Source: Streptacidiphilus jeojiense (GTDB taxonomy: Bacteria; Actinomycetota; Actinomycetes; Streptomycetales; Streptomycetaceae). From it: a stretch of DNA of 64,000 nucleotides. Location: positions 421,172 through 485,171 of the forward strand of contig NZ_JOEH01000009.1 of assembly GCF_000719095.1 (NCBI RefSeq), written 5' to 3'. Position 1 is the stretch's first letter; each line of letters begins with the position of its first letter. A program made the translations under genes and the position numbers. Positions 19,537 through 46,470 of this stretch are shown here, one piece after another. The notes beneath the pieces were generated by a model. It saw only the letters and a program-made list of their open reading frames with translations, did no database searches and was not told the DNA's origin.

Positions 19537-19682
19537 GAGTCATTGTCCGCCGTCGCGAGCATTGCGGGACGGTGGGGTGTCGGCGGTTGAAGTGAGCTGT
19601 TCCGGCCTCCGGGACTAGCATGCGGAAGGACAGGGAGGGGACCGACCCCTCACTGCCCGACCGCTCTGAGGAGCGATTAACG

Positions 19683-22199
<2,517 letters not shown>

Positions 22200-22299: not shown

Positions 22300-23127
22300 T
22301 CAGCCGACGACGGCGACCGGAGCGTCCCAGTAGCTGGTGTCGATGCCGAGGGCGACGCCGCCGAGCGTCACCGTGTGGCCGCCCAGGTACTGCCGCGACC
22401 GGGTCCGGCCGGTCCACAGGGTGTCCGGGAGGACCGGGTCCGAGGTCGAGGTGATGACCTTCGAGGTGTCGCCGACCCAGCGCGCGATCCACAGGTCGTC
22501 CGGCAGGTCGGTGGTGCCGGCCCGGGCAGCGGCGCCCATCGCGGTGATGCCTGAGTCGGCGCTGCTGTAGAAGCCGGCCCGGTAGCCCTCGGCGTGCATG
22601 GCGGCGTCCCAGGCCCGGGTGTAGTCGAGTACCGCGGCGGCGACGGTCGGGTCCTTCTGGTCGTAGGCCTCCATGTCCAGGTAGACCGGGCTGCCGGGGG
22701 CGATACCGAGCGCGCCGGCGTCCCCCGCGGCTTCGGCGCCGTCGGCCCGGCCCTGTGAGGTGGCGGTGGCGGCGTTGATCCGGTTGGCCGAGGTCCGGTC
22801 GGGAGCCTGCGCGCCGGCGTAGATCGGCACGATGCTCCAGCCGGAAGCATCCACTGCGGCCACCCATGCGGCGGTGAGCTGCGGCTGGTCGCAGGCCCGG
22901 CTGCTGCCGCCGACGTAGACGCCGACCCCGCCGTAGCGGTTGGCGGGATCGGCCTTCCAGGCGTCCATCGTGCTCAGCGCGGGAGCCGTGCAAGCGTCGA
23001 AGACCTGACCGGTGAAGATCCTCCCCGGCGCCGGTACCAGGTCGGCCGCGGTGGCGGTGCCCGTCGGTACGGTTCCGAGGACGCCGAGCACGACCAGCAC
23101 GGTGGAGAGACGCAGCGCGGTGGACAC
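22300..23127 (-). CDS. Secreted DUF1906 glycoside-hydrolase-like protein (Rv2525c-like)
   Basis: Exported protein of 275 residues with a signal peptide of about 28 residues ending near TATA-ADL. The rest is a TIM-barrel-like DUF1906 domain, the family of mycobacterial Rv2525c: it starts with GQVFDACTAPALSTMDAW, contains GVYVGG and the acidic strand YLDMEAYD, and ends with GIDTSYWD. The family is thought to act on peptidoglycan or a related glycan, but activity is not established. GTG 23127 has AAAGGG upstream. It follows the NACHT gene on the same strand after 78 bp. Confidence 0.85.
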   Translation of the reverse strand: MSTALRLSTVLVVLGVLGTVPTGTATAADLVPAPGRIFTGQVFDACTAPALSTMDAWKADPANRYGGVGVYVGGSSRACDQPQLTAAWVAAVDASGWSIVPIYAGAQAPDRTSANRINAATATSQGRADGAEAAGDAGALGIAPGSPVYLDMEAYDQKDPTVAAAVLDYTRAWDAAMHAEGYRAGFYSSADSGITAMGAAARAGTTDLPDDLWIARWVGDTSKVITSTSDPVLPDTLWTGRTRSRQYLGGHTVTLGGVALGIDTSYWDAPVAVVG

Positions 23128-23205: not shown

Positions 23206-26200
23206 TCAGCGGATGGCGAAGGTGCTGACCGAGGTGGGCCGGGCGCCCTGGCTGATGCCGAAGATGGAGAGCGGGACGGGGGGCTGGTAGTGCTGGATCT
23301 CGACCTGGCAGCCGTACAGGTCGCTGAGGTCCGAGGCCAGCAGGGACTCGTCCAGCGGCTCGGTGCCGTCCACCGCCAGGGTGAGGCTGTGGATGTTCGG
23401 GTAGACCCGGGTCAGTTCGGCGATGTGGCCGATCCGGCTCGGTACCAGCAGCTCCAGCTTGCTGATCTGTGGGAGCGGGCGCTGTCGGGGGAGCTCGGCG
23501 AGGTCCTCGTGGCTGATCCGGAGTCGGCGCAGCCGGGTGAGTTCCGGGAGCCTTCCGCGGTCGGCCGCGGTGGTGCGGAGGGCGTCGAAGGACAGGTGGG
23601 CCAGTCCGCCGAGGGAGCCCAGCTGCTCCCAGAGCCGGGGGCCGGACTCGTAACGGCCGATGTGGAGGTGGGTCAGGCCGGGCGGGAGGGCCAGCCCCGG
23701 GATCTCGGTCTCGCTGACGATGCCGAGCACCCGGATGGAGGCGGAGTCGCCGAGCGCGGCGGCGTTCCGCAGCTCGGTGTTGGTGTGCAGGTAGAGGTCC
23801 TCCACCGGGTGGTGGGGGAGCGGGCCGAGGTCGATGGGGCTGGTGCAGTCGCTGAGCCAGAAGTTGCGGGCACGGGTGCGCCCCAGTACGTCGTCGAGAT
23901 CGATCGGGTTCGGGATGTCGTGCAGCCGCAGCTGGTCCAGCCCCGGTGGGAGCAGCGCCAGGTCCGCCATGGTGAGCGGACCGGAGCACTCGATGCGCGG
24001 GCGGTGGCCCAGCGTGTTCAGGAACTCCAGCTGTTCCCGGGACTTGACCATGAAGCGGAAGGTGTCGTGGAAGGCCAGTCGGGCGATGACCCGTTCGCCG
24101 TACTCCACGGTGTCGAAGCGGTCCCAGGCCGAGGTGAGCTGGCCGCGGACGTTGGTCGAGGGATGGTCGACGTACCGGAGGATCAGCGGGATGGCCTGGC
24201 TGGTGGCGACCGTGGTGGCGGCCACCGCCACGGCGTAGGCGGTGGTCTGTTCCAGGTCCTCGGGGCCGGGGAGCAGTCCGAGGATGAGCGGTCCGGCCGC
24301 TGCCAGGTCCCGGGCGGCCTCGGTGTCCTGCGGCGGGATGAGCGTGGCGGTGCGGTCGGTTACCTGCTGTCGGACCGCGGGGTCCAGTTCGGTCGCGTGT
24401 TCCAGACAGGTAGCCGCGAGCAGCCAGAGCCGCTTGTCGCCGTTCTCGTCGGCCCGCAGCAGCAACGAGCGCAGCAGCGCGGCGCGTTCTCGGGGGCGTC
24501 CGTGGCCGACGGCCATGCGGATCACGTCGTGCCACTGGTCGTCGACGGCGTTGGCGACCAGCAGGCCGAAGTCCTCGTCCTCGACGGCGGCCTTGGCGGC
24601 GAGGTAGTCCTGGAAGGTGCGGTGGACGAAGTCCACGGAGTCGGCGGTGGGCTGGCGCAGCAGGCCGCTGCGGACCAGCAGGTGGTGCAGCACCTGCTCG
24701 GCGTCGGCGGTGATCGCGGGCATCGCCGGGAGGGCTTCGGCGAGCTTGCGGACGGCCAGCTCCCGGTCGATCTCCACCGCCCCGTTCTTGGCCAGCCAGT
24801 AGGCCAGCCGCTGCAGCAGCTGGGTCTGCTGATCGACCGTCAGCCGGAGCCCGTCCTGGCCGAGGATGCCGCGTTCGCGGTCGCGGCGGACCAGCAGCAT
24901 CTCCAGGGCAGCGGAGTAGAGCTCCATCCGGCCCTCGGGCAGGTAGCCGTTGCGGTCGCGGTTGAGGGCGCAGATCAGCGCGCACATCAACGGGCTGTTG
25001 GCGAGGCGGCCCAGGTCCTGCTTGGTGACCACAGCGGTGCGCAGCTTCTCGCACCACTCCGGCAGCCGGGGGTCGTCACCGGCTGCGGTGTGCCATTTTC
25101 CGATGAAGGCGGAGACGTCGCTGCGGCTCATCGGCAGCAGCTCCAGCTCGGTGAAGCCCGCCTGGGTCAGCCAGCCCTCGCGGACCGCGGAGGGGCGGGT
25201 GGTGACCACGTAGCGGCAGTCGGGGTAGGCGTCCAGCAGGTCCAGCAGCCAGCGGCGGGTCCGGGCCCGGTCCGCCTCCGGGACCTCGTCCACGCCGTCC
25301 ACCAGCAGCAGCACCCGGCCGGCCGCCAGCTGCGCGGTGACCCAGCCGGCCGACCCGGCGCTGCCGCTGAGCGGTCGGGCGACGGTGGCCAGGAACTCCT
25401 CGGGGCTGGGGAGTTCGTCGCGCTGGGCCACGGCGCGCAGCCGGATCAGCAGCGGGACGCAGTCGTCCAGGTCGGACAGCGGGGACGGCAGGTCGCGGCG
25501 GGCGGTGGCGGTGGCGAGCCACTGCAGCAGGGTGGTCTTGCCCGAGCCGGCCGATCCGCGCACCAGCACCCGCCGGTGGCCGGCCAGGGCCTGCTCGGCG
25601 CGCTGGGCCGTCGGCCCCTGCTCGTCGGCGTCCTGCGCGGCGGAGCCGCCGAGCAGTTCCAGGCTGAGGTAGCTGGTGTCCAGCGGCCAGGAGTCGTCCT
25701 CGTCGCCGCCCCGGCTCAGTCCGATGATGTGCAGGGTGCTGGACTGCCTCACGACGAAGGCGCGGTAGCGCTCCTCGAAGTCGTCGACCGGGGTGCGCAC
25801 CCGCTTCCAGGCCAGGGCGTTGTTGTTGCTGTCGCAGGTGGGCTTGAACAGCGGGGAGTCCAGGATGGTCGTGGCCGGGGTGATCTCCACCCGTCCGTGC
25901 CGCCACTGCGCCGGATCCGCGCGGACGACGCCGACCAGGCGGTTCTCCACGAAGACGGCCGATCCGGAGAAGCCCGCCCAGGGTGAGCCGCCGTCGGGCC
26001 GGGCCGCGGGTGCGCCGTGCAGGCTGTCCAGGACCTGGCGGTGCCGCAGCAGGCCCGAACCGGGTTTCAGGGTGCCGAAGAGCTGCTCCCCGTCCAGTTC
26101 GCCGTCGGCACCGGCGACCGCGGGGAAGCCGATGGCATGCGCGCCGGGGAGCGGCGCGAGGTCGTCGACCTTGCCCCAGACCAGGGTGCTGAACTCGCGG

Positions 26201-26448
26201 AAGCTCCGGGACGGCACCAACTCCCGTTCGGAGAGCAGCAGCGCGGCGTCGCACTCCTCGTCGTAGCGGGTCCAGGCGACGGAGCAGTGCTGCGGACCGG
26301 TCCCCCCGGGAACGACGACGGTGGGCTGCTCGGCTCCGCGGACCACATGAGCCGCCGTCAGCACCAGCCAGGGGGTGAGCAGGTAGCCGCTGCCCTGGCT
26401 GGTGCCGAAGACGGCGGCGATGCGCTGCCGCTGGGGGTGCGCCGCCAT
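23206..26448 (-). CDS. Trypsin-like protease - NACHT NTPase - leucine-rich-repeat-like protein
   Basis: Three-part protein of 1080 residues without signal peptide or clear membrane helix. Residues 1-200 are a trypsin-like protease with an intact triad: His34 (LTAAHVV), Asp67 (ECDAALL), Ser161 (GFSGSAVF). A NACHT-type STAND NTPase follows: Walker A GSAGSGKTT (298-306), Walker B VLLLVDGVDEV (379-389), sensor TTRPS (416-420), and a winged-helix region ending in VDFVHRTFQDYLAAK. The C-terminal ~300 residues are Leu-rich and LRR-like (LTHLHIG, LAHLSF, LRRLRIS, ISKLELL, IHSLTLAV). This matches bacterial NLR-like conflict or anti-phage proteins in which ligand sensing by the repeats would activate the protease. 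A TRYPCO2 partner lies one base upstream. Confidence 0.85.
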   Translation of the reverse strand: MAAHPQRQRIAAVFGTSQGSGYLLTPWLVLTAAHVVRGAEQPTVVVPGGTGPQHCSVAWTRYDEECDAALLLSERELVPSRSFREFSTLVWGKVDDLAPLPGAHAIGFPAVAGADGELDGEQLFGTLKPGSGLLRHRQVLDSLHGAPAARPDGGSPWAGFSGSAVFVENRLVGVVRADPAQWRHGRVEITPATTILDSPLFKPTCDSNNNALAWKRVRTPVDDFEERYRAFVVRQSSTLHIIGLSRGGDEDDSWPLDTSYLSLELLGGSAAQDADEQGPTAQRAEQALAGHRRVLVRGSAGSGKTTLLQWLATATARRDLPSPLSDLDDCVPLLIRLRAVAQRDELPSPEEFLATVARPLSGSAGSAGWVTAQLAAGRVLLLVDGVDEVPEADRARTRRWLLDLLDAYPDCRYVVTTRPSAVREGWLTQAGFTELELLPMSRSDVSAFIGKWHTAAGDDPRLPEWCEKLRTAVVTKQDLGRLANSPLMCALICALNRDRNGYLPEGRMELYSAALEMLLVRRDRERGILGQDGLRLTVDQQTQLLQRLAYWLAKNGAVEIDRELAVRKLAEALPAMPAITADAEQVLHHLLVRSGLLRQPTADSVDFVHRTFQDYLAAKAAVEDEDFGLLVANAVDDQWHDVIRMAVGHGRPRERAALLRSLLLRADENGDKRLWLLAATCLEHATELDPAVRQQVTDRTATLIPPQDTEAARDLAAAGPLILGLLPGPEDLEQTTAYAVAVAATTVATSQAIPLILRYVDHPSTNVRGQLTSAWDRFDTVEYGERVIARLAFHDTFRFMVKSREQLEFLNTLGHRPRIECSGPLTMADLALLPPGLDQLRLHDIPNPIDLDDVLGRTRARNFWLSDCTSPIDLGPLPHHPVEDLYLHTNTELRNAAALGDSASIRVLGIVSETEIPGLALPPGLTHLHIGRYESGPRLWEQLGSLGGLAHLSFDALRTTAADRGRLPELTRLRRLRISHEDLAELPRQRPLPQISKLELLVPSRIGHIAELTRVYPNIHSLTLAVDGTEPLDESLLASDLSDLYGCQVEIQHYQPPVPLSIFGISQGARPTSVSTFAIR

Positions 26449-26449
26449 C

Positions 26450-26782
26450 TCAGTTGCCGGCCCCGAACCTGGAGGTCCCGCCCGGCTCCTGGTTGCCGAC
26501 CTCGATCGGGGCGCCGCTCACGGCGTCCTTGGGGGTGAGCGTGAAGGACACCCGGTGCGTGGTCGCCCGCGACGCCTTGGCCTCGGCCTCGGCGCTGAGC
26601 ACCCAGGCCTTCACCCCGCCCCTGGCCCCGGCCTCGCGGCGGAGTTCCACCGCGAAGTCCATCTGGATCGGGCCGACCTCGAAACGGATCGGGGCGCCGG
26701 CCCCGTCCAGGGCGGCCCGGACCAGTTGTTCACGGATGGCACGGACTGCGGTGGAGAGCTCGATCTCGCTGAAGTCGGACAC
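26450..26782 (-). CDS. Trypsin-co-occurring domain (TRYPCO2-like) protein
   Basis: Small protein of 110 residues. It opens with a helix (IELSTAVRAIREQL), then strands IRFEVGPIQMDFAVEL and GVKAWVLSAEAEA, and ends HRVSFTLTPKD plus a flexible tail. This matches the TRYPCO2 domain known to be encoded beside trypsin-like proteases and STAND NTPases in multicellular bacteria. The stop codon and the ATG of the protease-NACHT gene are one base apart, so the two are a single translational unit. Its role, perhaps adaptor or effector-associated domain, is not established. GTG 26782 is preceded by a weak GGGGGAT. Confidence 0.8.
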   Translation of the reverse strand: MSDFSEIELSTAVRAIREQLVRAALDGAGAPIRFEVGPIQMDFAVELRREAGARGGVKAWVLSAEAEAKASRATTHRVSFTLTPKDAVSGAPIEVGNQEPGGTSRFGAGN

Positions 26783-45063: not shown

Positions 45064-46470
45064 CTACTGCGCGGCAGCCTCCGCGGTACGTGCGGGCCTG
45101 CGGCGGCCGGGGATGGCCGCCAGCGCCTCGCCGATGGTCGCGACCTCCGTCACCCGCATGCCCTTGGGGACCTTGCCCGGGTCCGGCGGGACCAGTGCGT
45201 GGGTGAACCCCAGTCGGGCCGCCTCGGCGAGCCGCCGTTCCACGCCGGTCACCCGGCGCACCTCGCCGGCCAGGCCGACCTCGCCGATGGCGACCAGGTT
45301 GGCCGGCAGCGGGGTGTCCGCCGCCGAGCTGGCCACCGACAGCGCGATGGCCAGGTCCGCCGCCGGTTCGGTGAGCTTCACCCCGCCCACCGTCGCGGTG
45401 TAGATGTCGAGCTTGCCCAGCCGCACGCCGCCGTGCCGCTCCACCACGGCCAGCACCATGGCGATCCGCGGGGACTCCAGGCCGGAGGTGGTCCGCCGGG
45501 GGGAGGGGATCTGCGAGTCCACCATCAGCGCCTGGACCTCGGCGACCAGCGGGCGCCGTCCCTCCAGGGTGACGGTCAGACAGGTCCCCGGCACCGGTTT
45601 GTCCCGCTTGGTCAGGAACAGCCCGGACGGGTCGGCGACGCCGGAGATCCCGGCGTCGTGCAGTTCGAAGCAGCCGACCTCGTCGGTCGCGCCGTAGCGG
45701 TTCTTGACGCCGCGGATGATCCGCAGCCTGGCATGGCGGTCGCCCTCGAAGTGCAGCACCACGTCCACCAGGTGCTCCAGCAGCCGGGGGCCGGCGATCG
45801 AGCCGTCCTTGGTGACATGGCCGACCAGCAGCGTGGACATGGCACGGGCTTTCGATACCCGGATCAGGGCGGCGGTGACCTCGCGGATCTGCGCCGGGCC
45901 GCCCGGTGCGCTCTCCAGTTGGGCCGAGGCGACGGTCTGCACCGAGTCCAGGATCAGCAGCGAGGGCTGGACCTGTTCGATGTGGCCGAGGACGGCGGCC
46001 AGGTCGGTCTCGGCGGCGAGGTAGAGGTGCGGGGAGAGCGCGCCGATCCGGTCGGCGCGCAGCCGGACCTGGCTGGTCGACTCCTCGGCGGTGATGTAGA
46101 GGGTGCGGTGCGCGTCGCTGGCCGCCTTGGCGGCGACGTCCAGCAGCAGTGTGGACTTGCCGACGCCGGGCTCGCCGGCCAGCAGCGCGACCGCACCGGG
46201 CACCAGGCCGCCGCCGAGCACCCGGTCCAGCTCGCCGATGCCGGTGGCCCGGGAGGCGGCCACGGTGGCGTCCACCTGACCGATCGGGCGCGCGGCCGTG
46301 CTGACCGGACCCGCGGCGGTGGTGCGGACGGCGGGGGAGCCGTACTCCTCGATGGTTCCCCAGGCGTTGCACTCGGTGCAGCGGCCGGTCCATTTGGGCG
46401 GGGTGTTGCCGCACTCGGTGCAGCGGTACGAGGAGCGCGGGGCCTTGGTGGAGGTGGTTCGGGCTGCCAT
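45064..46470 (-). CDS. radA: DNA repair protein RadA (Sms)
   Basis: RecA-like helicase for branch migration in recombination. The protein has 468 residues. The N-terminal zinc finger is C-x2-C...C-x2-C (YRCTECGNT, GRCTECNAWG); Walker A is GEPGVGKST; the RadA-specific motif is KNRYGATDEVG (usual KNRFG); and the C-terminal Lon-protease-like domain lacks protease function. ATG 46470 is chosen because the zinc finger follows at the normal distance. It is divergent from the sigma-like fusion gene and upstream of disA. Confidence 0.95.
   Translation of the reverse strand: MAARTTSTKAPRSSYRCTECGNTPPKWTGRCTECNAWGTIEEYGSPAVRTTAAGPVSTAARPIGQVDATVAASRATGIGELDRVLGGGLVPGAVALLAGEPGVGKSTLLLDVAAKAASDAHRTLYITAEESTSQVRLRADRIGALSPHLYLAAETDLAAVLGHIEQVQPSLLILDSVQTVASAQLESAPGGPAQIREVTAALIRVSKARAMSTLLVGHVTKDGSIAGPRLLEHLVDVVLHFEGDRHARLRIIRGVKNRYGATDEVGCFELHDAGISGVADPSGLFLTKRDKPVPGTCLTVTLEGRRPLVAEVQALMVDSQIPSPRRTTSGLESPRIAMVLAVVERHGGVRLGKLDIYTATVGGVKLTEPAADLAIALSVASSAADTPLPANLVAIGEVGLAGEVRRVTGVERRLAEAARLGFTHALVPPDPGKVPKGMRVTEVATIGEALAAIPGRRRPARTAEAAAQ

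Follow-up and report, generated by a model that had tools for sequence, protein, structure and literature searches.

The DNA analysed here, called the window, is a stretch of 64,000 nucleotides from Streptacidiphilus jeojiense (contig NZ_JOEH01000009.1). This soil actinomycete has there a two-gene unit that encodes a small Trypco2 protein and a large protein with a serine protease, a NACHT domain, and leucine-rich repeats (LRRs). The coding-strand junction of the two genes reads ...AACTGAGATGGCG, that is, TGA, one base, and ATG. The first-pass annotation had read a TRYPCO2-like protein of 110 amino acids and, one base later, a trypsin-NACHT protein of 1080 amino acids, and the open reading frames and strong profile matches for all three families bear this out. 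The small protein matches the Pfam family Trypco2 (PF19631) with E 6e-29 and 100.6 bits against a cut-off of 24.2, while the large protein matches NACHT (PF05729, E 1.9e-26) and Trypsin_2 (PF13365, E 8.4e-7), both above the cut-off. The catalytic triad and the Walker motifs, which had been called intact, are invariant across 90 aligned sequences (H34, D67, and S161 of the protease; G303 and K304 in the Walker A motif GSAGSGKT at residues 298-305; D384, D387, and E388 of Walker B). The closest named relative of the large protein, from S. carbonis, is 79% identical.

In the AlphaFold2 (AF2) model of the large protein, whose predicted local distance difference test score (pLDDT) is 89, residues 1-208 match Deg/HtrA proteases and residues ~221-1060 match NLRC4, NOD2, and NLRP3 in the PDB. 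No LRR was recognized by Pfam in the window protein itself, and two relatives have LRR_4/LRR_14 matches below the cut-off. However, the family profile matches internalin-type LRRs with E about 1e-15 over residues ~850-1063, and together with the model this upholds the LRR-like C-terminus seen in the first reading. As in bacterial nucleotide-binding leucine-rich-repeat (NLR) proteins, a NACHT-clade STAND (signal transduction ATPase with numerous domains) ATPase with conserved Walker motifs is followed by C-terminal LRRs. As modelled, the large protein is a protease-armed NLR, and the unit resembles a bacterial counterpart of the NLR immune sensors of animals. The features are collected in Table 1.

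Table 1. Features of the two-gene unit and its landmark gene; positions are those of the window.
Feature	Position	Strand	Basis and remarks
Trypco2 gene, 110 amino acids, GTG start	26450..26782	-	Pfam PF19631; kept beside the protease gene; Trypco2 domain at residues 7-84, followed by a tail of ~26 residues that closes with ...GGTSRFGAGN
Protease-NACHT-LRR (NLR-type) gene, 1080 amino acids, ATG start	23206..26448	-	Open reading frame, Pfam, AF2 model, PDB matches
HtrA/Deg-fold serine protease, residues 1-208	25825..26448	-	H34/D67/S161; S155 is the Ser six before the catalytic Ser
NACHT nucleotide-binding domain, residues 292-455	25084..25575	-	PF05729, invariant motifs; Walker A 298-305, Walker B LLLVDGVDE
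Helical/winged-helix NLR-body region, residues 456-798, including FVHRTFQDY (607-615) and a helical HD2-like part	24055..25083	-	AF2 secondary structure; NLRP3 NACHT match to ~727 at 5 A root-mean-square deviation
About 11 LRRs (strands counted by eye), residues 799-1060, the most variable part	23269..24054	-	Internalin profile match, model, conservation drop, dN/dS (see text)
clpC, convergent conserved neighbour; landmark of the locus, not a component	19620..22199	+	Pfam Clp_N/AAA_2, synteny survey

Trypco2 tracks the protease, not the NACHT domain. In the survey set of 150 genomes of the family Streptomycetaceae, Trypco2 is present in 91, and 102 Trypco2 loci were compared: 100 fetched regions (the best match of 90 genomes and 10 second matches), the window, and the other copy in its own genome. 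A protease gene lies directly downstream in 79 of these loci, divergently adjacent in 6, and further off in 3, and 14 have none. The catalytic triad is complete in 80 of the 85 proteases adjoining Trypco2, and the other five show gaps, not substitutions. Forty-six of the 85 are not fused to this NACHT; when 41 of these partner proteins were scanned, Trypsin_2 was found in 34, plus various STAND and tetratricopeptide repeat (TPR) parts. Among 79 NACHT-body loci of named genomes, Trypco2 stands at 11 of the 16 with a protease versus none of the 63 without one (Fisher test, 5e-10, relatedness uncorrected). Genome-wide, it occurs in all 43 genomes that have a match of the protease form (E up to about 1e-47) versus 48 of the 107 others; the 79 named loci overlap the 150-genome set (three identical places). 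The TRYPCO-with-trypsin pairing named in the first-pass annotation is supported by these counts.

In 56 protease-NACHT loci, three of which are duplicates of the same genome place, Trypco2 lies upstream in 45, downstream in 6, and is absent from the fetched stretch in 5. The pairing of the small gene with the large one is thus conserved; this and the strong profile matches go against both sequence-based conditions under which the first-pass annotation would have been refuted. Of the protease loci, 22 show no clpC; their commonest neighbour is Trypco2, followed by a MerR-family regulator in 4 and then by families in at most 3. Therefore, the survey points to neither a general third component nor an encoded substrate within ~4.5 kb. 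Some long open frames, considered as natural Trypco2-protease fusions, were taken as overlapping frames, and none was shown to be a fusion. The own genome has a second Trypco2 gene (L090, contig C60, 1876-6978), which precedes a gene for a 1583-residue trypsin - AAA/STAND - TPR protein whose end seems frame-shifted as read by eye. The chassis is another one, and the Trypco2 pairing is the same.

It was found that one NACHT body carries several kinds of N-terminus. The protease-less loci mostly have NNH1 (PF22733 in all three scanned, E 2e-52 to 4e-60). When 137 NACHT proteins were classed, with NNH1 assigned by a custom profile built from six loci, 59 had the protease, 71 had NNH1, and 7 had another N-terminus; that of the window protein is Trypsin_2, not NNH1, according to Pfam. 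Two of the seven look like helix-turn-helix domains as read from the letters, and some have almost no N-terminal part. By eye, an XRE-like helix-turn-helix N-terminus sits on the same NACHT body in the NACHT genes of L022 and L029. On a tree of 134 NACHT domains (FastTree, single model), the protease/NNH1 label needs 3 changes. Protease versus all others needs 4, at least 3 of which are forced by well-supported branches, compared with 43 for shuffled labels.

A protease-less NLR gene precedes a protease NLR gene in the same orientation at three named loci and in two of the 150 genomes. At the named loci, all beside clpC, the protease-less NACHT-LRR gene stands directly before the protease-NACHT-LRR gene (L067, 7425-13559; L076, 7299-13835; L081, 7354-14840). 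Trypco2 lies between the two NLR genes in L067 and L076, and the first NLR of L067 is of the NNH1 type by Pfam. It is possible that these tandem genes are paired NLRs in one operon.

The unit has a preferred address. The survey of clpC surroundings covered 113 NLR matches (E to about 1e-47) in 147 of the 149 genomes with clpC, the fragmented G001 and G137 being omitted. G140 and G142 match via the protease only; one G113 match (6.8e-52), second fragments, and weaker matches were left out. Forty-nine Trypco2 matches were possibly near clpC, and the remaining Trypco2 matches were compared with the clpC positions by eye. Fifty-nine of the 113 NLR matches are found 3′ of clpC at a distance of up to 9 kb, all of them convergent with it, and there is none on the 5′ side; about 0.1 match would be expected by chance, as a rough estimate for a 9-kb target in roughly 8.5 Mb. 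Fifty of the 147 genomes have at least one NLR at clpC, namely the protease form in 32, each of which also has Trypco2, and protease-less forms only in 18; two genomes have both. At clpC, Trypco2 stands alone in 8 of the remaining genomes, and 89 have neither an NLR match nor Trypco2 there. In the named-genome set, clpC was found in 41 of the 79 loci, always downstream on the opposite strand; the loci labelled as lying elsewhere may merely end before clpC, and some are contig ends. The address is not absolute, because the location label changes 17 times on the NACHT tree. The NLR gene runs towards clpC, with the sensor end beside clpC and the warhead end outward. A single crossover in NACHT could swap the warhead.

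Three genes flanking the unit in the window were scanned: clpC, a glycoside hydrolase-like gene, and a YfhO gene. The second of these (22300-23127, reverse strand) is Rv2525c-like, has a signal peptide by eye, and separates clpC from the NLR gene. In G019 these two genes are about as far apart as in the window, but the gap measures 93-260 bases in 9 of the 13 genomes compared within the genus. In some Streptomyces, a gene for an immune-inhibitor-A-like M6 metalloprotease directly follows clpC (567-3038 in L234, the one scanned); genes of similar length occur in L235-L238. The place beyond such a gene would suit four protease-NLRs that are 3.2-4.2 kb away from clpC. Near clpC, L136, L139, L144, L146, L157, L164, L168, and L188 have orphan Trypco2 genes for which no protease gene was found, and L168 retains a remnant matching the NACHT gene. 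Of 20 clpC-side stretches, 19 have no protease, NACHT, or Trypco2 profile match, and one has all three ~15 kb from clpC. A general defence hotspot at clpC was considered and rejected on a small sample of ten genes from nine of these stretches, which are of ordinary kinds and match no PADLOC model.

A 68-kb Streptomyces plasmid was found to carry a Trypco2 and protease-NACHT pair, annotated as 'trypco2 family protein' and 'NACHT domain-containing protein', whose genes overlap by one base. The pair thus occurs away from clpC as well, and it can move as a two-gene unit. The NACHT body is rare outside the family: at E 1e-50 it was found in 11 of 197 genomes of the class, 10 of these in the family. 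No phage-borne copies were found at E 1e-10. PHROGs gave two matches of the NACHT part, without an assigned function there, and none for Trypco2. Elsewhere in the window, positions 45829-46188 (reverse strand) give a weak NACHT match of 22.5 bits, below the cut-off, in an open frame of 478 amino acids.

The C-terminal region changes faster than the rest of the protein. In blocks of 40 residues over 32 aligned sequences, the share of the majority residue is 0.54-0.87 over residues 241-800 and 0.25-0.46 over residues 801-1080. Compared with the G019 relative, NACHT is 91% identical and the LRR 52%. In four pairwise comparisons, the ratio of nonsynonymous to synonymous changes (dN/dS) is 0.59-1.19 for the LRR and 0.22-0.59 for NACHT, as estimated by simple counting on GC-rich codons, the LRR alignment being uncertain for the two comparisons at the greatest distance; for ClpC of these four relatives, the identity is 97-100%. 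Judging from these sequences, the fast change of the LRR would fit a sensor under changing selection, short of proof. The idea that the variation centres on the concave LRR face was rejected: variation is similar in helices, in loops, and at polar strand positions, and lower at hydrophobic strand positions.

Bacterial NLRs, the bNACHT proteins, were reportedly treated by Kibby in 2023. NACHT-LRR proteins of bacteria have already been described in the available part of PMC12169576, and the window unit shares with them the NACHT and LRRs in one polypeptide and the sensor-switch-effector plan. The window unit, known here from its sequence, adds an N-terminal HtrA-like protease, a separate Trypco2 partner, and the preferred clpC locus. 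The NCBIfam model of antiphage EruA matches residues 429-619 with 25.8 bits against a cut-off of 1000. Trypco2-trypsin pairs are described among the VMAP ternary conflict systems (Kaur 2020, PMC7159879, in the part available). In the window, as in those systems, a Trypco2 gene adjoins that of a trypsin-like peptidase, but the peptidase is fused to NACHT-LRR and lacks VMAP-C according to Pfam; the genome has a single VMAP-C match, which lies on a different contig, C4. VMAP operons also have vWA and MoxR genes, and the three flanking genes scanned in the window are clpC, the glycoside hydrolase-like gene, and the YfhO gene.

In Hachiman and AVAST systems, a trypsin-like protease fused to a defence protein activates a partner encoded upstream, and an upstream metallo-β-lactamase (MBL) pro-nuclease is cut (PMC12799240, available part). 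Compared with AVAST type 1 and the nuclease-protease pairs of that source, the window unit has Trypco2 as its partner instead of an MBL nuclease; the next two genes upstream encode Trypco2 and YfhO, neither of them an MBL-fold nuclease. Avs1b is not matched over its full length (residues 15-177, 17.2 bits in PADLOC; 14 bits against a cut-off of 1500 in NCBIfam). In the CARD-NLR system LypABC, which is trypsin/NLR-like, lysis depends on residues of both the peptidase and the ATPase (PMC13236601, available part). A trypsin-like peptidase working with an NLR-like ATPase is shared with the window unit. In LypABC as that part describes it, however, a CARD-like domain links the protease to an NLR with TPR-like repeats that is a protein of its own, while in the window protease and NACHT form one polypeptide with the protease at the N-terminus and no CARD family by Pfam. 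The streptomycete NNH1-NACHT proteins (PF22733) share the NACHT body and the clpC-side slot, but have a helical NNH1 N-terminus, no protease, and no Trypco2 in the locus.

The unit had been proposed as an uncharacterised system, and no close PADLOC model was found for it; the best two matches reach 16-17 bits and concern the protease part. In the open-licence literature, which lacks most subscription papers, no paper was found on the combination, the clpC locus, warhead exchange, or a function of Trypco2, and a search for NNH1 returned unrelated publications only. Each component class has already been described, while the combination, the clpC locus, and the warhead exchange seem new, not having been found in that literature.

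I consider it fairly probable that the two-gene unit works as a bacterial sensor of the NLR type, with a serine protease warhead, and that it responds to trouble inside the cell, most likely phage. At rest, the NACHT-LRR body would be inactive and the HtrA-like protease held in check, with Trypco2 as the dedicated partner of the protease, be it a chaperone, an inhibitor, or a docking subunit. The fast-evolving C-terminal region may bind an invader or a disturbed host protein, upon which NACHT would exchange its nucleotide and oligomerise. The protease domains would thereby be brought together and switched on, and might cleave a target so as to kill or arrest the cell; Trypco2 itself, a host protein, and a phage protein are candidate substrates. 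The nearest published logic for such a sense, assemble, and fire sequence is that of Hachiman/AVAST (PMC12799240) and LypABC (PMC13236601), as far as the available parts of these sources go. The first-pass annotation had proposed the same plan of repeats, NACHT, and protease, and its domains and architecture have held up; it missed that Trypco2 follows the protease rather than NACHT, that the N-termini vary, and that there is a fixed clpC site.

Several observations weigh against this reading or parts of it. Several relatives of ~820-875 amino acids, which cover 72-76% of the query, stop before most of the LRR, and thus the LRR is not shared by all family members. The AF2 model of Trypco2 (pLDDT 55) has no confident fold, and no sequence relative was found in the PDB up to E 1. 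The five protease loci without Trypco2 in the fetched stretch are L011, L013, L014, L023, and L081, though their genomes all carry Trypco2 elsewhere; the first four, which are related and away from clpC, carry upstream a gene for a MerR-family regulator, which in three of them immediately precedes the NACHT gene. A mirror-tree comparison of 85 pairs showed Trypco2 and protease distances to be correlated (r 0.72, with 0.22 as the highest value among 999 permutations). Within the 39 pairs of the NACHT type, however, the partial r of Trypco2 is 0.10 with the protease versus 0.35 with NACHT. The mirror-tree was therefore dropped as proof of contact between Trypco2 and the protease, since NACHT explains the correlation at least as well and it may reflect only shared history. 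In the genus of the window, the protease form stands at clpC in 13 of 14 genomes, a near-constancy that would be expected of a housekeeping or developmental role as well. The same holds for the ten genes taken from nine NLR-free clpC stretches, which encode enzymes, transporters, and kinases of ordinary kinds and give no PADLOC match; judged on these ten, a small number, the slot looks NLR-specific.

Trypco2 is probably the required partner of the protease, whether as an inhibitor, an activator or dock, or a substrate. The first of these roles, that of an antitoxin-like inhibitor silencing a protease that is dangerous alone until the NLR is triggered, is a possible one to which I give rather less than an even chance. 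It is suggested by an asymmetry at clpC, where 32 genomes have both genes, 8 have Trypco2 alone, and none has the protease form alone, and by the presence of Trypco2 somewhere in every protease-form genome. The eight orphan Trypco2 domains are unbroken, some being near-identical to paired ones, with a NACHT-gene remnant at one of the eight loci. However, an obligatory activator or chaperone predicts the lack of protease-only loci equally well. The L081 protease gene beside clpC has no Trypco2 in its stretch, the position of Trypco2 relative to the protease gene varies, and neither AF2 nor the PDB sequence search recognized an inhibitor fold.

It is more doubtful that Trypco2 is a substrate or pro-signal cut by the activated protease, by analogy with the upstream MBL pro-nuclease of Hachiman and AVAST. 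The trypsin-like protease acting on an upstream-encoded partner in the available part of PMC12799240 is the published parallel, the weak PADLOC matches of the protease part go to such protease families (Avs1b, LmuA, and RT-protease), and the neighbour survey offers no other widely shared gene as a substrate. On the other hand, Trypco2 resembles no enzyme or pore family in profile scans of Pfam, PADLOC, NCBIfam, and PHROGs. A Phe near the Trypco2 C-terminus, at first sight a further point in favour, was found in 32 of 38 NACHT-type pairs versus 7 of 39 others (77 of the 85 pairs; 8 were dropped, 6 on opposite strands and 2 with a wrongly cut tail). As this residue follows the NACHT chassis, which changes only about 4 times on the tree, it is not independent evidence; the tree cannot separate it from descent, and the tail Phe was rejected as a substrate mark. 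In the window, the tail occupies 26453-26530; the Phe near its end may be a docking motif, again with the link to descent. It is unlikely that the unit is a protease module for quality control or development without any anti-invader role, for although the HtrA-like fold of its protease, its convergent place beside clpC, and its constancy in the genus would suit housekeeping, the LRR diverges far faster than the rest while ClpC hardly changes in the same four relatives, 89 of 147 genomes lack both NLR match and Trypco2 at clpC, the warhead is exchanged, and plasmid-borne copies exist.

Returning to the NLR-type sensor with a protease warhead, a wider picture may be drawn, tentatively and as a whole. 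Streptomycetaceae may keep a dedicated, core-flanked NLR immune locus 3′ of clpC, in which the sensor (3′) end is anchored and the 5′ warhead and its partner are exchangeable (protease plus Trypco2, NNH1, or neither). The tandem sets of NNH1-NLR, Trypco2, and protease-NLR might cooperate like plant paired NLRs, and Trypco2 might be an obligatory safety subunit of such proteases on any STAND chassis.

The unit is an LRR-bearing bacterial NLR with a protease, joined by a partner family, Trypco2, that has been named but not explained. The clpC address makes such NLRs easy to locate in many Streptomyces genomes. Thus, two questions become testable, namely what the job of Trypco2 is and how one NLR chassis serves different effectors.

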